IMG/VR virus record: IMGVR_UViG_3300042905_000540
Span: 1 to 32,221 of that record
Length of the DNA: 32,221 bases
Origin: a virus
Reading direction: 5' to 3' (one strand)
Position numbers and translations under genes: made by a program. Every line of letters starts with the position of its first letter. Positions within the stretch are counted from its first letter, which is position 1. A model generated the notes under the pieces. The model saw only the letters and a list, made by a program, of their open reading frames with translations. It was not told where the DNA came from and did no database searches. This document shows positions 3,859 through 28,897 of the stretch, one piece after another.

Positions 3859-4526
3859 CTATACCCGCATGGTCCTTCTCGTCGATTAAGACATTTGAAC
3901 AATGTCCGAAGAAGTTTTATCACTTGAAAGTCGCCAAAGATTTTGAGGAAGACCACAACGCTGAGCACTTGCTCTATGGCACACGTTTCCATGAAGCCGC
4001 CGAGTTGTACATACGTGAAGGTGAACCGCTACCGCCGGAGTTTGCTTACGCACAGAATGTCTTGGACAAGTTGAACAAGCTGCCCGGTGTGAAGTTATGC
4101 GAGTACGAGATGGGGCTGACCGCTGATCTTGCACCGTGCGGGTTCAAAGATCCCAATGTGTGGTGGCGCGGTATCGCTGACCTGATCATCATTGACGATG
4201 AGGGCATGGCGCGGGTGCTTGACTACAAGACAGGTAAGAGCGCCAAGTACGCCGACAAAGGCCAGTTGGAGTTGATGTCGCTGGCCGTATTCAAGCACTT
4301 CCCCGAGGTGTTGTACGTCAAGGCAGGGTTGTTGTTTGTGGTGGCCGGTGCGTTCATCCGCGCCGAATACACCCGCAACAGTGAGGGCGAGATGTGGGAG
4401 AAGTGGTTGACCGATTACGGTCGCATGAAGGCCGCATACGAGACAAACGTATGGAACCCTCGCACGTCAGGATTGTGCAAGAAGCATTGCGTCGTTTTAT
4501 CATGCCCGCATAATGGGAGAGCGTGA
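3852..4526 (+). CDS. Cas4/RecB-like PD-(D/E)XK exonuclease, probably with an iron-sulfur cluster
   Basis: The 224-residue protein has the RecB-type nuclease motifs in order: FEQCPKKFY near the start, GTRFHEAAE with H47, WRGIADLIIID with the metal-binding Asp, VLDYKTGK as the D-(D/E)xK core, and a GQLELMSL helix. One N-terminal cysteine (C18) and a C-terminal trio (C209, C213, C218) match the arrangement that holds a 4Fe-4S cluster in Cas4 and AddB-type nucleases. Such phage enzymes probably resect DNA ends for recombination; the substrate here is inferred. There is no CRISPR array or Cas1/Cas2 in the window, so a replication role is more likely than adaptation. It overlaps the genes on both sides. 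Confidence 0.9.
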   Translation: MVTIPAWSFSSIKTFEQCPKKFYHLKVAKDFEEDHNAEHLLYGTRFHEAAELYIREGEPLPPEFAYAQNVLDKLNKLPGVKLCEYEMGLTADLAPCGFKDPNVWWRGIADLIIIDDEGMARVLDYKTGKSAKYADKGQLELMSLAVFKHFPEVLYVKAGLLFVVAGAFIRAEYTRNSEGEMWEKWLTDYGRMKAAYETNVWNPRTSGLCKKHCVVLSCPHNGRA

Positions 4527-4813
4527 TGGAAGAAGTTACTCAAGACACCGCAACTCTCGCGTTGATGATGGAGCGTGAGGTAGACAAGCGCGTAGTGATG
4601 TCCCTGATGCGGCTGATCGATCCGACCGAAGACGAGCGAATCCACCAGTTGAACCTGCGTATGGCCGAACAGACCATGGACAGTCGTGACCGTGGAAAAA
4701 TTCAACAAATGGTTGCTGGTCTAATCGTAAACATCTTGCTGCGTGATGGTTCCCTGATGCACGAGGTCAGGAGTAAACTCACTCAGATGAAACAAAAACA
4801 TATCGTGGAGTAA
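4526..4813 (+). CDS. Small helical phage protein, function unknown
   Basis: ATG 4526 overlaps the nuclease stop (TGATG) and follows GGAGAG at 4516-4521, so it is preferred to a GTG three bases upstream. The 95-residue product is acidic at the start and mainly helical, with a hydrophobic helix QQMVAGLIVNILL around residue 60-70 that is too interrupted for a clear membrane segment. No known motif was recognised. Its place between the nuclease and the HNH-like gene suggests co-expression with replication genes. Confidence 0.65.
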   Translation: MEEVTQDTATLALMMEREVDKRVVMSLMRLIDPTEDERIHQLNLRMAEQTMDSRDRGKIQQMVAGLIVNILLRDGSLMHEVRSKLTQMKQKHIVE

Positions 4814-4816
4814 GTT

Positions 4817-5113
4817 ATGCCTTACACCAAATCACCACGCCCGTACAAGGCTGAGTATCAAAAGCAGCTTGCCCGTGGCGAACACGCCGACCGTATGGAA
4901 CGCCAGCGAGCGCGTCGCGCAATGGATGCCAGTTCTCTTGATAAAGACAACGACGGGACGGCAGACAAGCGTGAAGGCAAAGACATCGACCACGTGAAGA
5001 TGTTATCTAAAGGCGGGTCAAACAAGACCGGCCTGCGCCTTCAGACCCCTGCGAAAAACCGGGCACGCAATGGTCACAGCGTGCGCGAACCGGGCGGCAA
5101 AAAACCCTCTTGA
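4817..5113 (+). CDS. Small HNH-like protein with an EF-hand-like loop
   Basis: The 98-residue basic protein ends in an HNH-type block: KDIDHVKMLSKGGSN with D58-H59, then LRLQTPAKNRAR. The family in phages typically has DH-x-x-x-L-S-x-GG-x-N followed by a second N or H helix, so a beta-beta-alpha-metal nuclease fold is plausible. The catalytic His (H59) is present; the final metal ligand would be N81. Directly upstream, D42 to E53 fit the 12-residue calcium loop D-x-D-x-D-G-x-x-D-x-x-E. GTGGAG at 4805-4810 lies six bases before the ATG. The N-terminal half is Arg-rich and may bind DNA. Nuclease activity is inferred. Confidence 0.65.
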   Translation: MPYTKSPRPYKAEYQKQLARGEHADRMERQRARRAMDASSLDKDNDGTADKREGKDIDHVKMLSKGGSNKTGLRLQTPAKNRARNGHSVREPGGKKPS

Positions 5114-5138
5114 CCTGTGCCGGGTAACCGGCTACATT
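5110..5138 (+). promoter_or_regulatory. Candidate sigma-70-type promoter
   Basis: TTGACC (5110-5115, five of six matches to TTGACA) is separated by exactly 17 bases from TACATT (5133-5138, four of six matches to TATAAT). The spacer holds an inverted repeat GCCGG-GTAA-CCGGC (5119-5132) which could be an operator. It starts at the stop codon of the previous gene and faces the SNF2 gene. It is one of the few early-region junctions with a real gap. Confidence 0.5.
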
Positions 5139-5144
5139 GAAGAT

Positions 5145-5206
5145 TCGATGCAGCGCGAGCGAGTGGGGAAGCCACTCCGCTCCGCATACGCATCTGCGGA
5201 GAACTG
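5145..5206 (+). promoter_or_regulatory. Structured leader of the SNF2 gene, two overlapping hairpins and a 19-codon ORF
   Basis: Between the promoter and ATG 5207 there is a 10-bp stem with one bulged C (5157-5166 with 5172-5182, loop GGAAG). A second stem TCCGCA/TGCGGA (5181-5186 with 5195-5200) shares two bases with the first. The second stem covers most of the GGAG at 5198-5201 that serves the SNF2 start. A 19-residue ORF runs from ATG 5148 to TGA 5205-5207 and overlaps the SNF2 ATG in TGATG. The arrangement resembles translational control of the downstream gene, but this rests on base pairing seen by eye. Confidence 0.4.
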
Positions 5207-6745
5207 ATGAAGATTATAGATAACAAGGCGCTGCTGCTGCGGGTACGCAACCCCCAGCAGATAACGACCGTCATTCCTAAAAGTAAAGAGCTGCCCGGTA
5301 ACGAGGTTGTCGTTCACTGGGGCCTCGACGAAGCACAAGTGCTCCGCAATCTGCGTATCAAGAACGTCCCCTCCCCCATCCTCGGGCGCTACGACTGGCC
5401 CGGCCAATACAGACCCTTCAATCACCAGCGCACCACGGCTGCGTTCCTCACGATGAACCGGCGTGCGTTCTGCTTGAATGAGCAAGGCACCGGCAAGACA
5501 GGCTCTGTCATCTGGGCCGCTGACTACTTGATCCGAGCAGGCCGAATCAAACGCGTGCTGGTGATCTGCCCGCTGTCAATCATGGACTCAGCATGGCGTG
5601 CTGACTTGTTCAAGTTTGCCATGCACCGCTCAGTGGACATCGCCTATGGTGCCAAGGACAAGCGCCGTGCCGTGATCAACGGCCCCGCCGAGTTCGTCAT
5701 CATCAACTATGACGGTGTTGAGATCGTCGCCGACGACATCGCACGGGGTGGGTTTGATCTGATTGTGGTTGATGAAGCCAACGCCTACAAGAACGCTCAG
5801 ACCAAACGCTGGAAGGTGCTCAACTCCCTCCTCAAAGCGGACACGTGGCTCTGGATGTTGACGGGCACGCCCGCTGCACAGTCGCCGCTCGATGCGTATG
5901 GGCTGGCAAAGCTGGTCAATCCGCAAGGCGTGCCGAAATACTTCACGTCTTTCCGCGACATGGTGATGACCAAGTTGACGAACTTCCGATGGATACCCAA
6001 AGAGAACGCAACACAGACGGTATACAACGCGCTGCAACCTGCCATCCGGTATACCAAGGACGAGTGCCTTGACCTGCCTGAGATGACCTACACCCGGCGC
6101 AACGTCGAGCTGACCAAGCAGCAGCAGAAGTATTACGACCTGCTGAAGAAACGCATGGTGATCCAAGCCGGAGGCGAAGAGATCACGTCGGTCAACGCTG
6201 CCGTCAACATGTCCAAACTCCTTCAGATCAGTTGTGGTGCCGTGTACTCCGATACGGGCGAGACACTGGAGTTTGACATCAGCAAGCGGTACGACGTACT
6301 GACCGAGGTCATCGACGAGTCAAGTCAGAAGGTGTTGATCTTTGTCCCGTTCAAGCACGTCATCAGCATCCTGTCCCAGAAGCTGACCGCAGACGGGTAC
6401 GAAAATGAAATCATTAGTGGTGACGTTTCCGCAGGTAAGCGCGCTGACATCTTTACACGCTTTCAAAACGAAGCTAACCCCCGGGTGCTGATCATCCAGC
6501 CCCAAGCTGCCGCCCATGGCGTCACGCTGACTGCGGCCAACACGGTGGTGTGGTGGGGGCCAACTGCGTCACTGGAAATCTATTCGCAAGCCAACGCCCG
6601 GGTGCATCGAAGCGGGCAACATCACCCTTCCACGGTGGTTCAACTTGCTGGTTCAGGTATAGAAAGACACGTTTACAACTTATTGGATAAGAAAATCGAC
6701 GTACACGCGAAAATTGTTGATCTTTACAAGGAGCTGCTTGCATAA
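5207..6745 (+). CDS. SNF2-type DEAD/H helicase or DNA translocase
   Basis: The 512-residue protein has the superfamily 2 motifs of the SNF2 branch: Walker A NEQGTGKT (K97), motif Ia around VLVICPLSIM, Walker B VVDEAN (D189, E190), motif III MLTGTP, motif V near QPQAAAHGVTLT, and motif VI QANARVHRSGQ, whose R-x-H-R-x-GQ form is diagnostic for SNF2-like ATPases. The fourth residue of the DEAx box is Asn instead of His. The length fits the compact single-protein phage version with no extra domains. Such phage proteins are thought to remodel replication or recombination intermediates; the exact role is not known. Translation starts at ATG 5207 behind GGAG at 5198-5201. Confidence 0.92.
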   Translation: MKIIDNKALLLRVRNPQQITTVIPKSKELPGNEVVVHWGLDEAQVLRNLRIKNVPSPILGRYDWPGQYRPFNHQRTTAAFLTMNRRAFCLNEQGTGKTGSVIWAADYLIRAGRIKRVLVICPLSIMDSAWRADLFKFAMHRSVDIAYGAKDKRRAVINGPAEFVIINYDGVEIVADDIARGGFDLIVVDEANAYKNAQTKRWKVLNSLLKADTWLWMLTGTPAAQSPLDAYGLAKLVNPQGVPKYFTSFRDMVMTKLTNFRWIPKENATQTVYNALQPAIRYTKDECLDLPEMTYTRRNVELTKQQQKYYDLLKKRMVIQAGGEEITSVNAAVNMSKLLQISCGAVYSDTGETLEFDISKRYDVLTEVIDESSQKVLIFVPFKHVISILSQKLTADGYENEIISGDVSAGKRADIFTRFQNEANPRVLIIQPQAAAHGVTLTAANTVVWWGPTASLEIYSQANARVHRSGQHHPSTVVQLAGSGIERHVYNLLDKKIDVHAKIVDLYKELLA

Positions 6746-6766
6746 ACCACAAAATGCCACTATAAT
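6738..6766 (+). promoter_or_regulatory. Candidate sigma-70-type promoter with perfect -10
   Basis: A perfect TATAAT at 6761-6766 is preceded at 17 bases by TTGCAT (6738-6743, three of six matches to TTGACA). It overlaps the end of the SNF2 gene and points to the three genes from 6795 to 8399, which end in an intrinsic terminator at 8411. This block therefore looks like one transcription unit. Confidence 0.5.
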
Positions 6767-6794
6767 GACTATTCCATTCCCCAAGGAGAACAAC

Positions 6795-7199
6795 GTGACT
6801 GAAGAAGCACCCCCCATCCCAGTTGAAAAGCTGGTCAAGGTTTACCTCAAGATGAACGGCAAGTTGGGCGAACTCCGAGCAGCGTACGAAGCCGAGGAGA
6901 AGGCGCTCAAGGAGCAGATGACGACAATCAAGTCGGCGCTGCTGGCGTACTGCAAAGAGCAGAACGTGGAGTCGGTGCGAACCGGCGAAGGTTTGTTTTA
7001 TCGCGGCGTGTCTACGCGCTACTGGACAAATGATTGGGAGGCGATGGGCAAGTTCGTGGTCGAACACAACGTGCCCGAATTGCTGGAGAAGCGTCTGCAT
7101 CAAGGCAACATGAAGCAGTTTCTGGAAACAAACCCGGACGCGCTGCCCCCGGGCCTGAACGTGGACAGCGAGTACACCATCACAGTAAGGAGAAAGTAA
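6795..7199 (+). CDS. Conserved phage protein, function unknown
   Basis: The start is a GTG at 6795 with AAGGAG at 6783-6788, six bases upstream; upstream in-frame ATGs fall in or before the promoter and lack a ribosome site. The 134-residue product has a helical N-terminal half (coiled-coil-like, around KLGELRAAYEAEEKALKEQ), then VESVRTGEGLFYRG, a WTNDWEAMGKFV block, ELLEKRLHQGNMKQFLE, and ends PPGLNVDSEYTITVRRK. This layout recurs in many phages next to replication genes; I know no proven function. It is the first gene after the promoter and is coupled to the next gene by TAATG. Confidence 0.75.
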   Translation: MTEEAPPIPVEKLVKVYLKMNGKLGELRAAYEAEEKALKEQMTTIKSALLAYCKEQNVESVRTGEGLFYRGVSTRYWTNDWEAMGKFVVEHNVPELLEKRLHQGNMKQFLETNPDALPPGLNVDSEYTITVRRK

Positions 7200-7453
7200 T
7201 GAGCACGCTTGAGCGGCTCGTGCCGATTGAAGATGTAGCCAAGCACTTCACGGTGTCTATTTCAACGGTACGTGCGTGGGTCCGACAGGGGCTCATTCCT
7301 AAAGAAACGTACATACGGATAGGTAACACCTATCGGTTCAGCATCCCCAAAATTATGGAAGCCGTAACGAAGAACCCCACCGAGGAGCCGACGCCAAGCC
7401 AGCTCCCGGTACAACTTGAACTTGATCTTGGCAACCCTGACAAAGACCTTTAA
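7199..7453 (+). CDS. Excisionase/MerR-like helix-turn-helix DNA-binding protein
   Basis: The 84-residue protein has a winged helix-turn-helix of the excisionase/MerR type: VPIEDVAKHFTVSISTVRAWVRQGLIP (residues 7-33) is the helix-turn-helix with the usual S-x-x-TVR-x-W-x-x-x-G-x-I-P pattern, followed by the short wing YIRIGNTYRFS. The C-terminal tail from about residue 58 is Pro/Glu-rich and flexible. ATG 7199 overlaps the previous TAA and is preceded by AAGGAG at 7188-7193. No integrase lies in the window, so it is more likely a transcription regulator or replication accessory factor than a true excisionase. Confidence 0.8.
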   Translation: MSTLERLVPIEDVAKHFTVSISTVRAWVRQGLIPKETYIRIGNTYRFSIPKIMEAVTKNPTEEPTPSQLPVQLELDLGNPDKDL

Positions 7454-7463
7454 GGAGAACTTC

Positions 7464-8399
7464 ATGTCGAACGCTATGACTCTGTTTGCTAATCAATCGT
7501 CGTCCGCCTTGGCCCTGCTGCAAGGCATCGAGGACAACCTGACCGATAAGATCGCGGGATCTGGCGGTAGCCGCCGCATCAGTATTGAGGGCAATGTTTT
7601 CCGCGAAATCATCGGCGGTAAAGAAGTCCGCATCTCTGAAGACCGTGCACTACAAGTTGTGATCGTAAACGCAGCCCCCGTGTCCCGCACCTTCTACGCA
7701 GGCACCTACGTCAAAGGCCAGAAGTCAAAACCCACATGTTGGTCAAGCGACACACAGTCGCCGGATGCAGCAGTGCCCGAGGATCAACGGCAGTCGAAGT
7801 TTTGCAAAGACTGCCCCCAGAATATCCGAGGCTCTGCTGCACAGGGTGATGGACGTGCATGCCGCTTTGCACAACGGATTGCCGTGGCACTGGCAAGTGA
7901 TAGCGGTGTAGATGACAAGGTATATCAAGTCAACCTGCCTGCTACCAGCGTGTTTGGCGATTCGGATGGTCAGAAGATGCCGCTGCAAGCCTACGGTCGG
8001 CACCTCAAAGCGCATAACACGCATGTGATCAGCGTGGTAACGGAGATGCGTTTTGATCCTGCTGGTCAGATGAAGCTCGTGTTCAAGCCGGTGCGTCCGC
8101 TGAACGATGAAGAACTGAAGACCGTGATCGGCTTGCGTGAGCACCCCGATGCCATCAAAGCAATCACCATGACAGTGAGCCAGATGGACACGGACGAAGC
8201 AGCGCCGGAATCAGCACCGGCACCCGTTGCGAAAGCCGCGCCCAAGGCGGAGGCTAAACCTGAACCCAAAGCCGCGCCAGTGGTGGAGGCCAAGCCAGAA
8301 GTAGTAGAAGAACCCAAGAAGGTGGTGAAGAAGTCTGCTGCGCCGGAACCGACGGAGAAATCGGATTTGGCAGACATCGTAGGTGAGTGGGACGACTGA
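7464..8399 (+). CDS. Cys-rich, acid-tailed replication protein, candidate single-strand DNA-binding protein
   Basis: The start at 7464 follows AAGGAG (7452-7457). The 311-residue product has a conserved core: RRISIEGNVFREI, VVIVNAAPVSRTFYAG, then PTCWSSD, SKFCKDCPQN and GRACRFAQRIAV, giving four cysteines that may bind zinc, and MPLQAYGRHLKAHN. Residues from about 235 are a long Ala/Pro/Lys/Glu linker of AAPKAEAKPEPK type. It ends in an acidic, aromatic tail DLADIVGEWDD. A folded core, flexible linker and acidic tip are the layout of SSB proteins and T7 gp2.5, where the tip recruits polymerase and helicase. The core is a known phage family of uncertain function, so the SSB role is inferred from layout and neighbours. 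Confidence 0.7.
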   Translation: MSNAMTLFANQSSSALALLQGIEDNLTDKIAGSGGSRRISIEGNVFREIIGGKEVRISEDRALQVVIVNAAPVSRTFYAGTYVKGQKSKPTCWSSDTQSPDAAVPEDQRQSKFCKDCPQNIRGSAAQGDGRACRFAQRIAVALASDSGVDDKVYQVNLPATSVFGDSDGQKMPLQAYGRHLKAHNTHVISVVTEMRFDPAGQMKLVFKPVRPLNDEELKTVIGLREHPDAIKAITMTVSQMDTDEAAPESAPAPVAKAAPKAEAKPEPKAAPVVEAKPEVVEEPKKVVKKSAAPEPTEKSDLADIVGEWDD

Positions 8400-8410
8400 G
8401 TTCCAGTTTA

Positions 8411-8441
8411 GGGTGGGGTCGCTCCCCACCCTTTCTTTTTT
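8411..8441 (+). terminator. Rho-independent terminator
   Basis: GGGTGGGG (8411-8418) pairs with CCCCACCC (8424-8431) around a 5-base loop TCGCT, followed by TTTCTTTTTT (8432-8441). It lies 12 bases after the SSB-like gene stop. It should end the 6795-8399 unit and may limit transcription into the primase-helicase gene. Confidence 0.88.
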
Positions 8442-8462
8442 CAGTTACCACGACACCTACGA

Positions 8463-11342
8463 ATGGCAGCTATGGACACAAAAACATTTTTGGGGTCGAT
8501 GCTGGGAGACGAAGGGACGTTCTGCTTGTTCGCTGTGCGGGATCGCACAAGGAAGCAGGAGTTTTACACGGACCTAGACGCCCTGATCCAAGCTGCTCAC
8601 AGGCTGGACAATGAAGCATACGATGCGTATTTTGCGCTGGGGACATTTGATTCGGCAGGCTCTCGCGGTGCCGATAACGTCGTTCAACTCAAAGCGTTCT
8701 TCCTTGACCTAGACTGTGGGCCATCTAAAGACTACTCAACACAAAGCGAGGCACTGCACGGCCTTCAACTTTTCTGTAAACAATCGAAGCTGCCACGCCC
8801 TACGGTTATCAACTCAGGGCGCGGGATACATGCGTACTGGCAGTTGGTATCCCCGGTGCCACGCAGCGAATGGCAACCGGTAGCGAATCAATTCAAGAGC
8901 CTATGCAAGTCCTTGGGGTTGCGAGCCGACCCCGCAGTCACCGCAGACGCAGCGCGGGTGTTGCGTATACCCGGGACACACAACTACAAGGACAAGCCCC
9001 CGACAGAAGTTTGTATGGTTGGAGCTGCCGGTGCGCCGATTGAGTTTGATTTGTTCTCTAAACTGGTCTTCACGGATAACCTGAATGATGTGATAACCAG
9101 CGCGCCAAAAATTGTCGCCGCCGAACGGGATGCGATGATGGATGCGCTGGCAGGCAGCTACGTCAGTCGGTTCCGAACGATCATGATGAAGACCGTCAAC
9201 GGCAAGGGGTGTGCACAACTAGCCAAAGTTATAACAAACCAAGCGGAAATATCCGAGCCACTTTGGCGTGCAGGACTGTCGATTGCGAAGTTTTGCGTTG
9301 ACAACGACAAAGCTATACATCGTATCTCGGAGAAGCACCCGAACTACGACCCGCAGGTTACAAACGCGAAGGCGGCGCTGATCAAAGGACCGTATCTGTG
9401 TGAGCGGTTCAATGAGTTTCAACCCGACGTATGCCCCACGTGTTCTCATTGGGGGAAAATCAAGTCACCCATTGTCCTCGGGCGTGAAGTTGAAGAAGCC
9501 AGCGAAGAAGACAACATCGTTGTACAGAAGCCGATTGGTATTGCTAACGCGGAACCCATTCAGTATGTGATCCCCAAGTACCCGCACCCGTTTTTCCGTG
9601 GTAAATCGGGAGGAGTATTCAAGCGCGGGAAGAAAGTTGTAAACGAAGATGGGGAAGTTGATGAAGAGGCCGCAAAGGACAAGCTGGTCTACTTCAACGA
9701 CCTGTACGTTGTACGAAGATTAAAAGACTTAGAACTGGGTGAGCTGCTGGTTATGCGGCTACACCTGCCAAAAGACGGTGTGCGTGAGTTCACTGTTCCC
9801 CTGACCATAGTTGGTTCAAAAGACGAATTCCGCAAAAGCCTTGCGATGCAGGGTGTAGCGGTTCTCAACGTCGCAGAATTGATGGAGTACACCATGAAGT
9901 GGGTTACTGAGTTGCAGTTTAAGGCGGAGGCTGAAGAAGCCTGCCGACAGTTTGGGTGGGTGGATGACACAGGCGAAGCGTTCGCTGTAGGGAACATGGT
10001 CATCTACAAAGATCGTGTCGAAGCCAATGCACCGTCCAGTGCAACGGTAGGGCTTTTCCCTCGGTTCCAGCCTAAAGGCACGCTGGATGGTTGGAAGGAG
10101 ACAATGAAGTTCTACAACCGCCCCGGCATGGAAGCGCATCAGTTTATGGTGGGCTTATCGTTTGGGGCCGTGCTGATGGAGTTTCAGCCCATCAACGCAG
10201 CGGCGTTTCACATGTACAGCAAGGATAGTGGCTACGGCAAAACCACGGGCATGTTGGCGGGCACGTCGGTGTGGGGCGACCCTGACCTGTTGATGATGCA
10301 GGAACGGGATACGATCAACGCAAAGATGAACCGCGCTGAAGTGTACAAGAACTTGCCCTGCTACATGGACGAGCTGACCAACACCAAGCCGCAAGACTTG
10401 TCAGACTGGGCGTATCAATTACCAAGTGGTTTGCAGCGCAACCGCATGGGGCCGAAAGGCAACGTCGAGAGGGTGCGGGGTAAGCCGTGGAAAACGTTGT
10501 TTGGCACGACCGGCAACACGTCAATGATTGAGCGTATCTCGCTGTACAAGGCACTCCCTAAAGCTGAAGCGCAGCGGATCTTGGAATACCGGGTTGAGAA
10601 AGTATCGTTCTCTTCCAAGTCAGAGACAGACGAGTTTGCAACCGCTGTCAAGGAAAACTACGGCCACGCCGGTGTGCCTTACGTTCAGTACGTGATGAAC
10701 AATCTTGCGGCGGTGAAAGAGTTAGCAGACGCCACACAACGCAAGATTGACGCGCTTGCGGAACTGTCGGCGGAGAATCGGTTCTGGTCTGCGCTGGTGT
10801 CTCGCACCATAACCGGGTTGTTGGTAGCCAAGAAAGCCGATTTGATTGATTGGAAGATTGCACCCATCGTGGAGTGGTCGGTGCGGGCGATGCGGCTTGC
10901 ACAGACTACCGTGCGCGAGATGAACGCAGATGCCGAAGAAGTGCTCACCAACTACTTGGCCGAACACTACGGGAGTATCTTGCGTATCAAGTCTACCGAT
11001 GATGCACGCAAAGCAGCCAGCGGGCTTGATCATCTGATCGTGCCGGAAGCTACGCCTCGGGGCAACACATTTGTTGCTCGGTACGAGTACGACGTGAAGA
11101 AGCTGTATTTACTCCCCAAACCTCTCAAGGAGTGGTGTGGGGCACAGCAAATCAACTACGCTGGATTTGTTGATGGGTTGAAGACCGGACGCACCAGAGC
11201 CACCAAAGCCAAGATGCGGCTATCACGAGGCACCGCCATGAACCTGCCGCCTACCGATGTACTTGTCCTTGACTGCGCGGAATTCATGAACGATGAAACT
11301 GAACAGGCTATGGCTACAACAGCCGCGCTTTTCCAAAAATAG
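8463..11342 (+). CDS. Primase-helicase: AEP-like primase, zinc motif and DUF927-type helicase
   Basis: A 959-residue fusion that probably primes and unwinds DNA for the polymerase. Residues 1 to about 200 look like an archaeo-eukaryotic-type primase: FFLDLDCG with D82 and D84 as the metal-binding pair, SGRGIHAYW with H123, and RVLRIPGTHNYK. A Cys/His knuckle follows (C313, C324, C327, H329) ending GKIKSPIVLG. From about 360 to 760 is a DUF927-type helicase: Walker A DSGYGKTTG (K593, T594), Walker B YMDELTN (D636, E637), and a TTGNTS sensor-like block. The C-terminal 200 residues are helical and unassigned. ATG 8463 has no clear ribosome site; ATG 8472 is an alternative. The gene stands alone behind a terminator. 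Confidence 0.88.
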   Translation: MAAMDTKTFLGSMLGDEGTFCLFAVRDRTRKQEFYTDLDALIQAAHRLDNEAYDAYFALGTFDSAGSRGADNVVQLKAFFLDLDCGPSKDYSTQSEALHGLQLFCKQSKLPRPTVINSGRGIHAYWQLVSPVPRSEWQPVANQFKSLCKSLGLRADPAVTADAARVLRIPGTHNYKDKPPTEVCMVGAAGAPIEFDLFSKLVFTDNLNDVITSAPKIVAAERDAMMDALAGSYVSRFRTIMMKTVNGKGCAQLAKVITNQAEISEPLWRAGLSIAKFCVDNDKAIHRISEKHPNYDPQVTNAKAALIKGPYLCERFNEFQPDVCPTCSHWGKIKSPIVLGREVEEASEEDNIVVQKPIGIANAEPIQYVIPKYPHPFFRGKSGGVFKRGKKVVNEDGEVDEEAAKDKLVYFNDLYVVRRLKDLELGELLVMRLHLPKDGVREFTVPLTIVGSKDEFRKSLAMQGVAVLNVAELMEYTMKWVTELQFKAEAEEACRQFGWVDDTGEAFAVGNMVIYKDRVEANAPSSATVGLFPRFQPKGTLDGWKETMKFYNRPGMEAHQFMVGLSFGAVLMEFQPINAAAFHMYSKDSGYGKTTGMLAGTSVWGDPDLLMMQERDTINAKMNRAEVYKNLPCYMDELTNTKPQDLSDWAYQLPSGLQRNRMGPKGNVERVRGKPWKTLFGTTGNTSMIERISLYKALPKAEAQRILEYRVEKVSFSSKSETDEFATAVKENYGHAGVPYVQYVMNNLAAVKELADATQRKIDALAELSAENRFWSALVSRTITGLLVAKKADLIDWKIAPIVEWSVRAMRLAQTTVREMNADAEEVLTNYLAEHYGSILRIKSTDDARKAASGLDHLIVPEATPRGNTFVARYEYDVKKLYLLPKPLKEWCGAQQINYAGFVDGLKTGRTRATKAKMRLSRGTAMNLPPTDVLVLDCAEFMNDETEQAMATTAALFQK

Positions 11343-21794: not shown

Positions 21795-24700
21795 TCAACC
21801 CCTCAAAATTTTCAGCAATTCACTGTTAGTTGCCAATGGGTCTTTAACAGGCCCACCCTCTGCATATGGCGTTGCAAACATTTTTTCCTGCTGGGGGTTG
21901 GCGAAGATGCTACCCCAATCATAGACGTATCCGAGCTTCAGTGGATCAGGCGCTTTAACGGTAACTTGTTGCCCTGCAACATCAGGTGACTGCCCCAACA
22001 TCTGCATCATGGTGTTCAGGTTGCCCATCCGCTGATTGCGTAGTGCCGCCGCTTGATTGGCAGCGCGAGTGGCCTCTGCTTCGTCTGCAATCTGTTTCTG
22101 TAACGCCGCCTGCCCGGATGCGAGTTCCCCAAACAACCCCGTAGGTGCCCACCGAGACGTTGCAGCAGGAAGAAATGGAGCGATCTCTCCGACCGTACCT
22201 TCTGGTGCACCCGGAGGAGGAGCCCCCGGAACCCGCATGATGTAGTTGTAGATTGCCAGTCGATCAGCTTCGTCAACCTTTTTGTCGCCGGTTACGTCAT
22301 AGGTAACGTCTGGCGTCTGCCCCGCTGCAAGGGTCTGAGTGATGTAGTCAAGATCTGCCTGCGTAGGCTCAGCACGGGGGCGGCCAATAACTTGTTCTAT
22401 CCCGGTCAACCTACCAGTTAAGGCTTGTTCAGTTGTCCCTAACTGGGTGGCAACGTTGCCAATCGCCAACTGAAGGGCTTGATCTCTGGACAGCCCCGCT
22501 TTCTCGTACTCTCCCATCAACCTGATGACAGCATCTTGTGATGCCTGCACATCCGCCCGGGTCGTCTCGATTGCGGAGTAAACGCCAGTAGCTGGCTTGG
22601 CTTCGTTCTGCGGCGTATTGGGGTCGTCTTGTACAGACGGCGTTCCAATCGTATCGCCAAACGCCCGCTGAAGCGCATCGTCTCGGGCTATGCCAGCGTC
22701 CTCGTATTCACCCAGCCGACCGAGAATATCCAGTTCCAGTCCGGCCACATCATCGCGGGTTAGACCAAGTTCCCGATACAGCCCGGTAGCCGGTTTGGCT
22801 TCGTTCTCTGGAGTAGCCGGGTCATCCTGTACGGCAGGCGTACCCAAGACATTCGCGAGCAGATCTCGCGTGTCGGCAATGTTTTGGTCTGTGCGCTCTA
22901 ATGCTTCATAGATCCCTGTGGCCGGTTTGGCTTCATTAGCCGGGGTAGAAGGATCGTCGGCGACAGAAGGCGTACCAATAAGATCGGTGATTCTCTGTTC
23001 GCTAAGGCCAAGCTCATCTGCCAAATCCGAGATCGCCAAACCGATAGCATCGTCTCTCGCAATACCGGCAAGCTCATACTCTCCGAGCTTTGCCAGTACG
23101 GCATCCTTAACGTTGCCCAGACCAGTGGTGACATCTTCCTTGGTTGCATACGTGGTCAGCGCGGTGCTGATAGCATCCTTAACACCTTGAGTAGTCGCCA
23201 ACCCCGAAACCGCGTCACCAATTTTTCCCGCAACCTGTTCTAACGTCAGCCCCGGATTCTTCGTCATGTAATCCGTTATGGCCTTAGTAACGTCTTCCTT
23301 GCTAAGCCCGGGTGGGAACTTGATGTTTGCAATAGCAGTATTGATATCTGCTGTAGTGGCGTAACCTTTCAAAGCATCGCCAATTGCAGTCTTCACCGCT
23401 TCGGTAGTCGCCAGACCTGCCGTAGCATCGGTAATCTTCGTAGCTACCTGTTCTAACGTCAGCCCCGGATTCTTCGTCATGTAATCCGTAATCGCTGTCG
23501 TTACGTCTTCTTTGCTAATCCCCGGCGGAAACTTGATGTTGGATATTGCCGTGTCAATATCAGCCTTAGTAGCGAACGTCTTGGTGGTTTCTGTAAACGC
23601 TGCCGTAATATCGGCAATCGTAGGTGCAGCCGGTAAGAGCTTAATTGCAGCGTCAACCACTCCTTGAACGTCGGCCTTACTAAGCCCCGGATTGGCGTCG
23701 AATGCGTTTTGTACGATTGTTGATACGTCTTCTTTGCTGATTCCAGCCGGAAACTTGATGTTGGAAATTGCTGTATCGATGTCCGCCTTGGTTGCTTTGC
23801 CAGCAATCTGCTCTTGAGACAAGTTATAAAGTGCAACAGGAAGCGCAGTCTCTGCCCGCCCGCCAAGTTCTGTTTCTGCGTACTGCCCCACAAGCCGATC
23901 AACATCCGCTTGTTTGGGTGTCTCTAGCCCCAAGGCTTTATACGCAGCACGCACCTCGGCCTCATCAACCATGCGCGGGTCAACGTATTGATCAAGCAGC
24001 GACTTAATCTGCTCCTGTGATACGTCTGCGCCCTGTTTTACGAAGCCTTTGAAGTCGTCCTCAGTAGGCGTATAGCCTAGATCGCGGAACATCTGTGCGG
24101 CTTCAGTACGAGTGACCTGTCGCGGATCGACGTATTGCCGCACCGCCGTGTTGATGCCCGACTCATCAGCAACTTTGACGAATTGTGAAACTTCCGCATC
24201 AGTCGGAACGTAGCCAAGATCAGCGAAGAATTGGCGTGCTTCGGCGTTGGTTACGGCTTTGGGATCGGCGAATGCAACAATATCCGAAAGCGTGCTGCCT
24301 TCGTTGCGCATACCAATATACTTTGCCAAATCCGCAGCAGACGGCGTGTAGCCCTGTGCAGCAAAGGCGTCTCGGGCCTCCTGTTCGGTCACCGCAAGAG
24401 GATCGTAGGCAGAACGCAGATTGGTGATTGCAGTTGCTTCATCTCGTTGCCCAGCCAACGCACGCGCTTGTTCATCGGTAAGCGTATACCCTTCGGCAGC
24501 AGCAGCGTCTTTGACTTCTTGAATGTCCAAAACCTTGGGGTCAACAAATGTGCTGATCTGCTTTAACAGATCTTGCTGCGACACGTCTGCGCCCTGCCGA
24601 ACAAACTGAGCTAATTCATCGGTACCGCTGAATGGCACTCCTGCCGCCGGAGGATCTGTTGCGCTACCTTGCGAAGCCTTTTGCAGATTTAGAACGTCTG

Positions 24701-27700
24701 ATGACGTAATACGACCATCTCCGTTCCAGTCATACTGCGGGGCATATTGCTTGCGTGTTGCCAATGCTTGGGCAGTGCCTACATCCCACGAAGTTGGGCG
24801 CGCCGGAGGCGTATACCCGAGGCGGGTCATTTCTGCTTGTACTTCCTGCGTCGTGACTTGACGGGGGTCAACGTACTGCTCAATCTTAGTTTTGGCGTCC
24901 GCATCACTGACGCGGCCCGTAAACTGCGTAAGTTCTTCCGGCTTGGCGGTGTACCCAAGTTGTTTAAATAACGCATCCGCTTCAGACGTAGTGGTTGCCT
25001 GCGGCCCTACTTCGCTTTGAATGTCTCGGATGGTCTGAAGCTGATCACGCTGGCCGGTGTATCGATCAATCTCTGCCTGCGTGGGGTTTGTAATGCCAAT
25101 GTCGGCATATGCGTTTCTGGCTTCCTGCTCGGTCACAACCCGGGGATCGATGTACTTGGTTACATCATCGGCCAACGTAGCTTCAGGCCGCTTACCCGTG
25201 AACTGAGCAACATCTGCATCACTGGGGGCGAACCCGGTATTTGTACGCAGCGCGTCATAGGATTCTTGAGAACTGACGTATTGATCATCGAACCTTGGGT
25301 TCAGTAATTCTGCGCTTGTGTTGACACTGATCCCTAATTGCCCCAATTGCGTCTCTGCTGCCGCCGCATCTGGGGCGTTATCAACAATCTGCCTGACCTG
25401 TGGGTTTTGACTCAACACATTTGACAGAATGTCGCGGCCAGCAGATGCACCGTACGCACCGCCGGAAATCCCGCCTCCGGCAATCGCCCCAAGGATGGCA
25501 GAGCTGGCAATGTTGGCCCCGACATCGCGGGTGGGATCGAGCTTGTAAAGCTGGCTTTCCGTAAACGCTGTAGTAATGCCCTCTTCAATGCCTTCGGTTA
25601 CGCCTTCACGCAGGGTAATCGTGCCACCCTGTTTGACTCGTGCGGCTATTTCATCGATGGCGTTGGCGAACGTGCCCCTCCCCGTTCCTCCAATCAATGC
25701 CTTTTCAAGTGCCTGACCGCCAAGCCCGAGCGTCGTTGCCGTGACAAGTGCAGATATAGTGCCTGAACGACTGGCAACATCCAGAGCGACATTGGTAGCC
25801 TCGGCCTCCGACATACCAAGTTTCTTGGTAGCAATGTTGTACGCTTCTTCAAACGCGCCAGCCGCCGACCCCCCGGCGCTTTCTGCTATATCGGATACCC
25901 CGGCAGCAGCCAATCCCGTACGCGCACCAATCCTTTGAGCAGCGGTGGTCCCCATCCCCCGTGCTAACGCCAGACCACGCGCAAAAGTTGTGGCCCCTCC
26001 GCCGATCAACAGCGGAACAATTTCTTGTAGTCCTTCGGAAATCACAACTTCCGACAGAAACTCCACCGGCGTGTTCTTAAAGTTTTCCCAAATTGCTTTC
26101 GCCGCACCGCCGACACCTTGCGCTTTGGCAAGGTTTTCGCTCATGCTCTTGACAGCAGTCTGGTATTCCTCAGATGTCTTTGCCTTACCTACTTCAATCA
26201 AACTATCCGCAAGTTTTCCCAGCGGCGTTGTTTTAGGATTGATACCGGCCAACGTCACCAAGCCATTAAATGATTGCAGGATGTTGCCAAACGCTTTGAT
26301 CCCAACGCCCTGTGCTGTCTGCGTGCTGTCATACGCGTCTTTAATAAACTGCGGAATGACTTTTGGCAGATTGGATTCGCGCGCTCCGATGTCTTTTAGA
26401 ATATCGGCTACCGTTCTTGGCAGCGGTTTGACTTCACCGGGTGCAGGCGGACGCTCTTCTGGTGACATCATCTGCATCAACGGACTTACAAACTTTGCTA
26501 AGTCTTCATCTTTTTCTAGCGACCGAGCCAAAGCAACTGGGTCAACATCTTGTTTTGGCAACTGCCCCGCACTCCGCTCGTCCACAACCACCGCACGAAC
26601 GCCATTTGGAAGCACGATTTCTGTCGCTGTTCCGTTTGCAAGCTCTGCTTCTGTCCCCAGTCGCAGCCCAGACGGCGCTGACATTTTAATTCGGGACAAT
26701 TCGGCTTCTAAACCTTGCCGCAATTCGCCCGCATTCTGTCCTTCTAGCCCAGCTATTGTGCCGACCCCGCTGACATCAATCACCGTTGGTTTATTGAGGT
26801 CTTGGCTTTCCTTCGTGTTAAGTTTTAACCCGCCAATGTCGTCCCACGACTTGAGGCTAGCGTCTTTCCATTTGTTTAGATCTGATCCGTATTGCTCATC
26901 TAACGACCGACTCATAGCAGCGGTCACTTCCTGCGGCAACTGTGCACCGCTCGCAAGCCCCGCTACATCTGCGGCTTGGTTGATTAGCCGGGTACGCTCC
27001 GCACTGATTGCCATATCCAGCTCGGGCTTAGACGAAATCATGCCCTGCTGACGACCATAGTCCAGATACGCCTTGTACGGATCTGTAGTCTTGAGATCGT
27101 TCGCCTTAACGAAGATCTCCGGATTGAATTCCGGATTGATGCGCTTAACTTCTACTTCGTTGATCAGGCGCGTCAATGCCTCCGGCTCTGGAGGGCTCAG
27201 ATCCGTGCGCGTAACCTTGGGTATGTAGTCCGCAAGGGCATCATCGGGCAGTTCTGTGCCCCGCGCCTGTCTAAAAAGATCCTTAGCGCGCGATACGTTG
27301 TCGAGCATGTTTGACAAAAACGCCGTGTTTTGCAGTTCTTGGGTTTGAAACTTACCAACTTGCGTTTCAAACTTTGTAAGGGCTGTGTCATATGCGGCTT
27401 CCAGAGGTTTTACCGAAGGGTACTCTTCCTTTACAATCGCCATAGCAGCATTAAACGGCGTGACGTAATTGTTTATATATTCGTTCACGTACCCGGACTT
27501 TGTGTTTGTTAACCTATTGTATTCGGCGTCCCACTCAGCTTTTCTGCGGTCAAAGTCCCGGTAGCGCGTATTTGCGTACCATGAATTATTTCCACCTACG
27601 GCACCGGCCAAAAGGTGGGCATCTATATCTTTGCTTAATTGTGCAACTATAGGTTGGACACGTTCTAGATATATATCTGCACCATCTGCGAGTGTATTTG

Positions 27701-28508
27701 CTGTACTCAGTGCGTCCCCATATCGCGTGCCCGGACCGGATTTTTCATCGAGCTTCTGTCGCGCTTCGGACATCTCTTTGCCCGCTTGGATCGTAGGGGC
27801 GTCTTCATCAATATTAAATAAATCGTTGACAAATGGTTTGCCTAAAGATAGCACCGATCCAATCAAATTAGCCGAAAAGGCTTTAGACCCACTTTCCCCA
27901 GAAATCGCAGCGCCAAGTGCAGATCTAGCAGCACGCGTAAACGGATCTTTGGAATCCAACACACTTAAACCGGGCGTGTCTTTCATTGCCAGACTGATTG
28001 AGTCAAGCACTGAAGAAGCAAGCCCTGCGGACAATCCGCCTGTTAACAAAGCCTTAAGCGGATCTTCATTCCGCGCAAGCCCAGTAAATCCTGATTTAAT
28101 TGCTCCTTCGGTGGCACGGACGATTGAGCGCCCCAATATTTCGCTAGTATCAACTAGCTTTGATACTTCTTTAGCCGCCAGTCCGCCCAGCTCTGTTCCT
28201 ACCGCTTGCAACAGCCCAGCGCGTATATCTCCTTTGTTTAACGCAGTATTGATAAGCGTATTGCCAATCAACGCCGAGGCAATTGCATTACTTGATGCGC
28301 CAACCAGACCCAACACAGAAGATCCAACCGCAGCGCCCAAACCCGGGAAAGCAAGATTGACTGCGATTGAAGCTAACGCTCGCGGATTTTCAACTAACTG
28401 CGTAATGTTTTGTACAACAGGCTGTAAAATATTACTGTCTACCCAGCGCCCCGTACTACGAAGATCATCTTCCAGCCCGCCGCCAAACAAATAATCAAAA
28501 ATGTCCAT
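21795..28508 (-). CDS. Giant repeat-rich virion-type protein with two dockerin/EF-hand-like loops
   Basis: The 2237-residue product has, in order: a hydrophobic N-terminal region (about 45-90, AVNLAFPGLGAAVGSSVLGL), a helical part to about 820, further glycine-rich hydrophobic stretches (825-850 and 995-1030, AILGAIAGGGISGG), about nine LGYTPT-type repeats (1073-1543), three 71-74 residue repeats (1572-1787), three 24-residue DDPxTPxNEAKPATG repeats (1844 to about 1977), and a C-terminal YAEGGPVKD. Calcium-loop motifs lie at 1260-1271 (DWNGDGRITSSD) and 2071-2082 (DVTGDKKVDEAD). Size, hydrophobic segments and position suggest an internal or ejected virion protein, or a very long tail-associated filament; neither is proven. 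The ribosome site is weak. Confidence 0.75.
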   Translation of the reverse strand: MDIFDYLFGGGLEDDLRSTGRWVDSNILQPVVQNITQLVENPRALASIAVNLAFPGLGAAVGSSVLGLVGASSNAIASALIGNTLINTALNKGDIRAGLLQAVGTELGGLAAKEVSKLVDTSEILGRSIVRATEGAIKSGFTGLARNEDPLKALLTGGLSAGLASSVLDSISLAMKDTPGLSVLDSKDPFTRAARSALGAAISGESGSKAFSANLIGSVLSLGKPFVNDLFNIDEDAPTIQAGKEMSEARQKLDEKSGPGTRYGDALSTANTLADGADIYLERVQPIVAQLSKDIDAHLLAGAVGGNNSWYANTRYRDFDRRKAEWDAEYNRLTNTKSGYVNEYINNYVTPFNAAMAIVKEEYPSVKPLEAAYDTALTKFETQVGKFQTQELQNTAFLSNMLDNVSRAKDLFRQARGTELPDDALADYIPKVTRTDLSPPEPEALTRLINEVEVKRINPEFNPEIFVKANDLKTTDPYKAYLDYGRQQGMISSKPELDMAISAERTRLINQAADVAGLASGAQLPQEVTAAMSRSLDEQYGSDLNKWKDASLKSWDDIGGLKLNTKESQDLNKPTVIDVSGVGTIAGLEGQNAGELRQGLEAELSRIKMSAPSGLRLGTEAELANGTATEIVLPNGVRAVVVDERSAGQLPKQDVDPVALARSLEKDEDLAKFVSPLMQMMSPEERPPAPGEVKPLPRTVADILKDIGARESNLPKVIPQFIKDAYDSTQTAQGVGIKAFGNILQSFNGLVTLAGINPKTTPLGKLADSLIEVGKAKTSEEYQTAVKSMSENLAKAQGVGGAAKAIWENFKNTPVEFLSEVVISEGLQEIVPLLIGGGATTFARGLALARGMGTTAAQRIGARTGLAAAGVSDIAESAGGSAAGAFEEAYNIATKKLGMSEAEATNVALDVASRSGTISALVTATTLGLGGQALEKALIGGTGRGTFANAIDEIAARVKQGGTITLREGVTEGIEEGITTAFTESQLYKLDPTRDVGANIASSAILGAIAGGGISGGAYGASAGRDILSNVLSQNPQVRQIVDNAPDAAAAETQLGQLGISVNTSAELLNPRFDDQYVSSQESYDALRTNTGFAPSDADVAQFTGKRPEATLADDVTKYIDPRVVTEQEARNAYADIGITNPTQAEIDRYTGQRDQLQTIRDIQSEVGPQATTTSEADALFKQLGYTAKPEELTQFTGRVSDADAKTKIEQYVDPRQVTTQEVQAEMTRLGYTPPARPTSWDVGTAQALATRKQYAPQYDWNGDGRITSSDVLNLQKASQGSATDPPAAGVPFSGTDELAQFVRQGADVSQQDLLKQISTFVDPKVLDIQEVKDAAAAEGYTLTDEQARALAGQRDEATAITNLRSAYDPLAVTEQEARDAFAAQGYTPSAADLAKYIGMRNEGSTLSDIVAFADPKAVTNAEARQFFADLGYVPTDAEVSQFVKVADESGINTAVRQYVDPRQVTRTEAAQMFRDLGYTPTEDDFKGFVKQGADVSQEQIKSLLDQYVDPRMVDEAEVRAAYKALGLETPKQADVDRLVGQYAETELGGRAETALPVALYNLSQEQIAGKATKADIDTAISNIKFPAGISKEDVSTIVQNAFDANPGLSKADVQGVVDAAIKLLPAAPTIADITAAFTETTKTFATKADIDTAISNIKFPPGISKEDVTTAITDYMTKNPGLTLEQVATKITDATAGLATTEAVKTAIGDALKGYATTADINTAIANIKFPPGLSKEDVTKAITDYMTKNPGLTLEQVAGKIGDAVSGLATTQGVKDAISTALTTYATKEDVTTGLGNVKDAVLAKLGEYELAGIARDDAIGLAISDLADELGLSEQRITDLIGTPSVADDPSTPANEAKPATGIYEALERTDQNIADTRDLLANVLGTPAVQDDPATPENEAKPATGLYRELGLTRDDVAGLELDILGRLGEYEDAGIARDDALQRAFGDTIGTPSVQDDPNTPQNEAKPATGVYSAIETTRADVQASQDAVIRLMGEYEKAGLSRDQALQLAIGNVATQLGTTEQALTGRLTGIEQVIGRPRAEPTQADLDYITQTLAAGQTPDVTYDVTGDKKVDEADRLAIYNYIMRVPGAPPPGAPEGTVGEIAPFLPAATSRWAPTGLFGELASGQAALQKQIADEAEATRAANQAAALRNQRMGNLNTMMQMLGQSPDVAGQQVTVKAPDPLKLGYVYDWGSIFANPQQEKMFATPYAEGGPVKDPLATNSELLKILRG
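22263..22298 (-). other. Second dockerin/EF-hand-like loop (residues 2071-2082)
   Basis: The loop has D at positions 1, 5, 9 and 12 and a following helix (RLAIYNYIM) as in dockerin calcium-binding halves. Position 3 is Thr and the usual glycine at position 6 is Lys, so calcium binding is less certain than for the other copy. Confidence 0.45.
22578..22979 (-). repeat. Three copies of a 24-residue repeat in the giant protein
   Basis: Copies at 22908-22979, 22776-22847 and 22578-22649 encode (I/L)GTPxVxDDPxTPxNEAKPATGxY. Copy spacing is 132 and then 198 bases, a whole number of codons. Between copies lie LGEYEDAGIARDDAL-like helices. The acidic, Pro-rich repeat looks like an exposed linker. Confidence 0.85.
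23148..23795 (-). repeat. Three tandem 71-74 residue repeats in the giant protein
   Basis: Residues 1572-1645 (74 aa), 1646-1716 and 1717-1787 (71 aa each) start A-T-K/T-A-D-I-x-T-A-I and contain NIKFPPGISKEDV, then NPGLTLEQV. The last two are very similar in DNA: a 44-base perfect direct repeat at 23233-23276 and 23446-23489, exactly 213 bases apart. This points to recent duplication or recombination within the gene. Confidence 0.9.
23882..25290 (-). repeat. Array of about nine LGYTPT-type repeats in the giant protein
   Basis: The unit is about 50 residues with consensus YVDPRxVTxxEAxxxFxxLGYTPTxxDxxxFV, alternating conserved DPR, LGYTPT and FTG/FVK blocks. Examples are QYVDPRQVTRTEAAQMF and FADPKAVTNAEARQFF. 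One copy is interrupted by the calcium-loop segment at 24696-24731. The protein repeats are clear; DNA similarity between copies is lower than in the 71-residue repeats, so this array is older. Ends are approximate. Confidence 0.85.
24696..24731 (-). other. First dockerin/EF-hand-like calcium loop (residues 1260-1271)
   Basis: DWNGDGRITSSD matches D-x-N-x-D-G-x-I-x-x-x-D exactly, the form used by dockerin calcium loops, and is followed by a helix VLNLQKA. It lies inside the LGYTPT repeat array, in a Pro-rich insertion. Confidence 0.7.
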
Positions 28509-28510
28509 GT

Positions 28511-28897
28511 TTATTCTGCCTTCAATACTGCGGTCAGAATGATTGCTTTTTCATGCTGCATTTGGCGATGCTCAAGACCAAGGTCGTCGTAGACGCTTTC
28601 TAAAAACGACAGGTACTTAGGTCTAGGCGGGTAGATAACAAATAGCTCTCTAGCGCCGGTTCCTTGCATGAGCTTGACAAACTTTTTTAGACTTTCACGA
28701 AGCCCGTCTAGGTCATCAGCGGTATAGGCATGAAACCGTACCAGTCCTTTGCCGTTGCTTAAGAAGGTAAACAATGTCTTATCATCTTGCACCATTTGAC
28801 CGCCCATCTGAAACATCGTATTGATGCGGCCTATGGATTGCTTGGCGGCAATGTTTCTGCGCGTAGCATCAATCTTGATGATTTCTTCAGGCGTCAT
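28511..28897 (-). CDS. Small late protein, function unknown
   Basis: The 128-residue product is alpha/beta: a helical start (PEEIIKIDATRRNIAAKQ), a GLVRFHAYTADD strand-turn, LRESLKKFVKLMQGTGARELFVIYPP, then FLESVYDDLGLEHR and a final strand AIILTAVL. The strand-helix-strand order is reminiscent of a small GNAT-like fold, such as that proposed for T7 gp13, but no acetyl-CoA loop is convincing, so this is only a suggestion. The ribosome site is weak and the gene lies one or two bases from both neighbours, suggesting coupling. Confidence 0.6.
   Translation of the reverse strand: MTPEEIIKIDATRRNIAAKQSIGRINTMFQMGGQMVQDDKTLFTFLSNGKGLVRFHAYTADDLDGLRESLKKFVKLMQGTGARELFVIYPPRPKYLSFLESVYDDLGLEHRQMQHEKAIILTAVLKAE

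Follow-up and report, generated by a model that had tools for sequence, protein, structure and literature searches.

A giant repeat protein with calcium-type loops as a probable ejection-module component of short-tailed, podophage-like viruses

P0001, a 2237-residue protein encoded in virus record IMGVR_UViG_3300042905_000540, is in our judgement reasonably likely to be a giant ejection-module (internal virion) protein of a short-tailed phage, tape-measure-like, mainly helical by prediction and with a putatively calcium-clamped C-terminus. It probably helps to carry phage DNA through the bacterial envelope. The family to which it belongs is new and of unusual build, but its kind of function is a known one, that of ejection or tape-measure-like virion proteins. 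The window, that is, the whole stretch of DNA analysed here, is this single record of 32,221 bases, in which plus-strand early genes extend to about 11.5 kb and a minus-strand late module follows.

Results

Repeats, loops and conserved blocks of P0001

The open reading frame of P0001 (21795..28508) runs on the minus strand from 28508 to 21795, with an ATG start and residue 1 at 28508, and its translation follows a plan that recurs in family members. All segments of the protein given below lie on the same strand. The earlier note had described, without naming the strand, three repeat families and two dockerin/EF-type loops, one of them fully consensus, and every one of these elements was found. 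Nine 46-residue LGYTPT repeats occupy residues 1075-1552 (23853..25286). Eight of the nine are whole in an HMM scan, while in the fourth (1210-1318) an insert carrying the loop DWNGDGRITSSD interrupts the repeat. A leave-one-out profile, from which the tested repeat was excluded, recovered every whole repeat at 23-53 bits, compared with a maximum of 8.7 bits against the full profile in 500 shuffles of the repeat region. Three repeats of 74, 71 and 71 residues follow at residues 1569-1784 (23157..23804), and three copies of DDPxTPxNEAKPATG begin at residues 1851, 1895 and 1961 (region 1851-1975, 22584..22958).

The embedded loop DWNGDGRITSSD (residues 1260-1271, 24696..24731) fits the full PROSITE-type EF pattern, and a C-terminal EF/dockerin-type loop, DVTGDKKVDEAD, lies at residues 2071-2082 (22263..22298). 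The EF-type loop pattern was thus seen twice, against 0.017 expected per shuffled protein. Each loop shares the DxNxDGxxxxxD-type calcium loop of type I dockerins (PF00404), and Pfam Dockerin_1 scored 28-30 bits against the whole of P0001 (cutoff 22.9) as two half-matches. However, a dockerin pairs two loops within 60-70 residues, whereas those of P0001 are single, at 1260 and 2071, and the 800-residue gap between the half-matches rules out a full dockerin module.

Outside the repeats, four further segments stand out. The N-terminal domain (residues 1-250, 27759..28508) is Gly/Ala-rich, predicted to be helical and mildly hydrophobic. The hydrophobic segments that had been reported for the first half were only mildly borne out: on the Kyte-Doolittle scale, one 19-residue segment near residue 44 reaches 1.62, and others reach about 1.45 (830-848 and 996-1014). 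In several relatives the hydrophobic stretches near the N-terminus are clearer, at 1.7-2.1. Residues 450-570 (26799..27161) form a predicted well-folded helical domain, mostly at pLDDT 82-95, with several near-invariant columns and no Pfam match. Residues 720-1060 (25329..26351), also predicted to be helical, show the top conservation among close relatives, and a C-terminal block (residues 2115-2237, 21798..22166), which ends in PYAEGGPV...ELLKILRG, contains near-invariant columns. We also observed a family motif, FNxxxYxxxNxLxxxDxYxHYLxxG, at residues 455-490. It recalls a motif that we take to be common in bacterial surface and RTX-type proteins, and none of the Pfam models matched this region.

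Predicted structure

We modelled P0001 as two halves using AlphaFold2 (AF2) with family alignments. The earlier note had proposed structure prediction for the repeat blocks, and the LGYTPT repeats came out as ordered and helical, at a pLDDT of roughly 85-95 over residues 1075-1550, the interrupted stretch and some linkers excepted. Helices were predicted across most of the remaining protein, with low pLDDT in parts of the second half. The pTM was low, 0.32 and 0.35, so the models do not give the overall shape.

Foldseek searches of the PDB with both halves returned nothing under 0.001, and the sole match under 0.001 among viral predicted structures, an algal-virus protein, is not meaningful (TM 0.07). 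The best VIA-align scores (Z 7.8 and 7.9) are at noise level for helical models. We set aside, for the same reason, a likeness to the LPS-binding N-terminal domain of RsaA (Z 5.7, 49 residues). Pfam matches to TY-Chap3, FolB, Sigma70_r3, Apolipoprotein and similar models were attributed to compositional or helical chance.

When the LGYTPT repeat profile was compared with the PDB, the listed matches were all calmodulins (best 0.0055) over a helix-linker-helix, in which the helix-LGQNPT-helix of calmodulin resembles the helix-LGYxPT-helix of the repeat. This likeness spans about 30 residues and the calmodulin copies are not independent; troponin C and calmodulin were among the Foldseek matches at E 0.8-1.8 only. 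AF2 placed short strands at both inter-helix loops of the repeat, and the consensus between helices reads VDPRxVTxxE and GQxxE. The comparison suggests that the repeats may be of EF-hand-like origin. Unlike EF-hands, they are without the acidic 12-residue loop; therefore, they offer no calcium site, and canonical EF-hands were rejected for them.

A large family in uncultured aquatic viruses

Successive scans of viral contigs found 7, 19 and 67 loci with relatives of P0001, and after removal of duplicates and 3'-open frames, 49 distinct 3'-complete members were retained. This is a large aquatic-virus family, confined to uncultured viral contigs apart from an N-terminal match in a named phage-collection record. 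No relative turned up in contigs from 84,980 genomes of bacteria and archaea, which were scanned with both the full alignment and that of the repeats. Among named phages, tblastn with P0001 gave no match, and a relative used as query gave only a 67-residue N-terminal one. The claim that no described phage protein has this plan is borne out by these searches, which found no full match to P0001 in named phages.

In the 47 of 49 members that are not truncated at the locus start, lengths range from 999 to 2577 residues, the shortest possibly being those of broken genes, and each protein has between 2 and 17 repeats. The majority of close relatives carry five LGYTPT repeats, so the nine in the window represent an expansion. 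Repeats 1, 5, 6, 7 and 9 of P0001 align with the five of the relatives, and repeats 2, 3, 4 and 8 are extra. P0001 evolves fast, with 30-41% identity against 77-83% for the nozzle in the same records.

Conservation divided the repeats and loops that had been described. The LGYTPT repeats are conserved as well as predicted to be ordered, and strong copies of the 71-74-residue repeat occur in eight relatives (L005, L007, L008, L009, L013, L046, L056 and L085), this repeat reaching distant family members too. The DDP repeat, by contrast, was found only in P0001 and the near-identical L002. As for the loops, 46 of 49 members retain the C-terminal DVTGDKKVDEAD-type loop, always 141-200 residues before the C-terminus, and the Asp columns of this loop are invariant or nearly so in a 14-member alignment. 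It is missing in L018, L007 and L078, the last two of which have C-termini of the type fused to P0006, the product of the adjoining gene. The embedded, fully consensus loop is poorly conserved: close relatives are without it, and among the other members only L007, L009/L056 and L085 have a comparable second loop. Counted among the 46 is L019, whose C-terminal loop lies in a second, out-of-frame ORF. In this locus (4485-8787) two overlapping frames make up the giant gene, the second with the calcium-type loop, and this arrangement may reflect a frameshift, a sequencing error or a real gene split.

A conserved module downstream of a podophage nozzle

Family loci with enough flank share one gene order: P0003, P0009, P0001, P0006, P0007, P0005 and, where the sequence reaches, P0002, all on the minus strand of the window. 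This order places P0001 in an ejection module that follows the nozzle/needle genes of the tail. P0003 (29552..31657) is the podophage tail nozzle (stabilization protein); it matches phrog_3287, and its profile matched the PDB nozzle chains 8zkm (4e-17) and 8zkk (6e-17) and 9nwi (5.5e-31). P0009 (28899..29555), the short protein after the nozzle gene, has a weak PDB sequence match (9eul/9euf, E=0.003; chains named GP-PDE domain-containing protein or ORF58) and, also given its position, is possibly a tail needle or short fibre. Given that P0003 has homologues among the solved podophage nozzles, and that a 65.7-kb relative has upstream genes matching PHROGs for terminase, portal and major head protein, we read the family records, on sequence grounds, as those of short-tailed, podophage-like phages.

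On the other side of the giant gene, P0006 (20885..21793) carries a C-terminal GEFVIPADVVSHLGNG domain. P0007 (19995..20876) is a conserved module member by synteny, with a weak DNA-ejection match (phrog_4287, E=0.0024) and homologues in MinM2, GB2A, DSL-LC04, HTVC023P and CRP-902. P0005 (18054..19991) is likewise a member by synteny. The last gene of the module encodes P0002 (11626..18048), a DarB-like giant protein of 2140 residues (phrog_10089, E=4e-77; synteny), which contains HALLHEAVHAAVH, by eye a zinc-metallopeptidase-like motif.

Two side observations concern this neighbourhood. P0008 (128 aa, 28511-28897), just before the giant gene, presumably resembles a GNAT acetyltransferase, and it has no Pfam match. 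In Roseobacter phage CRP-902 a gene annotated as GNAT occupies a comparable place, and a sequence link between the two was not found. In addition, a motif of the form aromatic/Met-Ala-x-Gly-Gly-x-hydrophobic is present in three module proteins, at residue 2215 of P0001, 209 of P0006 and 160 of P0005. Counted over loci that include duplicates, it occurs in 51 of 58 P0005, 62 of 76 P0006 and 61 of 85 giant-protein frames, compared with none of 65 nozzle, none of 67 P0009, 1 of 72 P0007 and 34 of 1274 other frames. It could be a docking or packaging signal common to the three proteins.

A tape-measure-type domain, fused or adjacent

In L005, L007 and L008, the giant protein is a fusion: its C-terminus carries the domain that P0006 has at its own C-terminal end (GEFVIPADVVSHLGNG and flanks). 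P0006-family members match several PHROGs annotated as tail length tape measure protein, the best at 5e-10; the P0006 of the window alone has no tape measure PHROG match reaching 0.01, P0001 itself has none, and phrog_6090, the one tape measure PHROG scanned against five long records, hit none of them. The tape measure proteins of long-tailed phages concerned here (PHROGs 6090, 3547, 25241, 5448, 17300 and 23013) share with this family a long helical build and an SDxIPAxLxxGEFV-type C-terminal domain, which is present in the fused or adjacent P0006. They differ in that the domain is a separate gene in the window and that this phage has a podophage nozzle. A literature search on EF-hands and tape measure proteins found nothing beyond a Geobacillus siphophage genome paper.

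Named phages carry related annotations. By the depositors' names, the same slot holds a tail tape measure protein in DSL-LC04 and in the Caulobacter phage GB2A, and a calcium-binding protein in the Synechococcus phage MinM2; the module of DSL-LC04 ends with a gene named DNA transfer protein. The 639-residue UOF78444 of record MW202545 (Caudoviricetes sp.) matches the family profile of the N-terminal domain (E=1.2e-29) and also holds a P0006-type C-terminal domain (3e-38). It thus joins both ends of the family plan in one protein, without the helical repeats and the long middle. We infer that the two ends are ancestral, that the repeat-rich middle expanded, and that the P0006 end is separate in the lineage of the window.

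As side observations, the matching ejection-module proteins of MW202545 (L097 10836-13994) are unusually rich in cysteine and contain runs such as CCSCCCSCCCSCCC. OQ594354.1, OL906435.1 and PP438419.1, listed as Synechococcus, Planktothrix and Planktothricoides phages, have an equal length of 65,014 and identical match scores, and may be one phage under different hosts.

Discussion

How P0001 may act

An ejection-module role for P0001 is supported by the conserved gene order, the podophage-like records, the P0006 fusion and the slot annotations in named phages, as well as by UOF78444, which joins both ends, the helical prediction, and the loop kept in 46 of 49 members at a near-fixed position. 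P0001 would be stored in the head or neck together with P0006, P0007, P0005 and P0002, and on infection would be expelled to build or line a trans-envelope conduit for the DNA. The Gly/Ala-rich helical N-terminal half may contact the membrane or the other ejection proteins. The 46-residue repeats, together with a second half that resembles a coiled coil, would make up a long helical region able to extend. One Ca2+ would be bound at the conserved C-terminal loop and would lock the junction ahead of the C-terminal block, which together with P0006 would be the counterpart of a tape measure protein's C-terminal end. The earlier note had offered a filament, a channel through the cell envelope, or a host-surface or matrix binder; the channel is the option that gene order favours, and we found no specific evidence for the other two. 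Likewise, what had been put forward as an undescribed system is better seen as a giant virion protein of the ejection/tape-measure kind.

The ejection proteins of T7 (gp14, gp15 and gp16) and P22 (gp7, gp20 and gp16), like P0001, are clustered with large virion proteins, mostly helical and fast-evolving. We take the P22 ejection genes to occupy the same genomic slot as P0001, after the nozzle/needle genes. Most members of the P0001 family are longer (1500-2577 residues) than the gp16 homologues (609-1337), and we know of no T7/P22-type ejection protein with helical repeats or a calcium-type loop, unlike this family with its 2-17 repeats. P0001 gave no sequence match (PHROG, Pfam) or fold match (Foldseek) to T7 or P22 ejection proteins, and a profile comparison of its N-terminal half with the DarB-like P0002 for a shared hydrophobic ejection domain found nothing. 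The absence of a T7/P22 match, the weak hydrophobic segments of P0001, the weak P0007 match and the low pTM weaken the ejection reading. Podophage ejection genes form a small operon with the largest gene last, gp15/gp16-type proteins differ widely in both size and sequence, and even the known ejection protein families are difficult to connect by sequence comparison (PMC8954989). The ejectosome literature on DEV and PhiM1 describes modules of this kind as forming an envelope channel (PMC10925440, PMC11440229).

Other readings of the protein

P0001 might instead act outside the particle, as a tail fibre or adhesin whose long, calcium-stabilised rod attaches to the host surface or to matrix, with reach supplied by the repeats. 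Variable repeats and calcium-type loops are common in surface-binding proteins, the repeat number varies from 2 to 17 in this family, P0001 lies two genes downstream of the possible needle or fibre P0009, and one helical repeat aligns marginally, at noise level, to the RsaA LPS-binding domain (Z 5.7). We consider this reading unlikely, given that the 65.7-kb relative has a long candidate tail fibre gene (1214 aa) upstream of the nozzle, that the predicted C-terminus is without a beta-structured receptor-binding tip, and that the Gly/Ala-rich N-terminus, the ejection-module synteny and the tape-measure-type domain fusion argue against it. A true tape measure protein, ruling the length of a tail longer than we assumed, would account for the adjoining P0006-family domain homologous to tape measure PHROGs, for the annotations of DSL-LC04 and GB2A, and for a long helical protein of variable length. 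Yet P0003 is homologous to podophage nozzles, a non-exhaustive check saw no tail tube or sheath gene in the structural stretch annotated for the 65.7-kb relative, and members differing by several hundred residues keep one module order, which is unexpected of a strict short-tail ruler; such a role is decidedly unlikely.

The repeats and loops could also be mostly neutral, fast-drifting filler, with no calcium function, in an unrelated virion protein. The private DDP repeat, the rare embedded loop, the fast evolution and the low pLDDT in parts of the second half all fit such drift. Against this stand the LGYTPT repeats, conserved and predicted to be ordered, and the C-terminal loop with its nearly invariant Asp positions in 46 of 49 relatives, and we regard filler as very improbable. 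An ejection-module protein is the reading that we prefer.

Implications

Ejection proteins are among the least understood parts of phages, and the family of P0001, with 49 distinct 3'-complete members, is large and essentially missing from the named phages searched. Its shared C-terminal domain, fused or as a separate gene, ties the ejection modules of short-tailed phages to tape measure proteins, and the family offers a specific putative calcium site that 46 of 49 members share. As a speculative and rather doubtful extension of the ejection reading, the repeat number may set the reach of an expelled, calcium-clamped conduit, in which calcium from the outside or the periplasm would lock the expelled form. 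P0001 would then be a length-adjustable ejectosome ruler, the podophage counterpart of a tape measure protein, with its C-terminal end split off as P0006. The natural length series of 2-17 repeats bears on whether a repeat protein sets the reach of the conduit.
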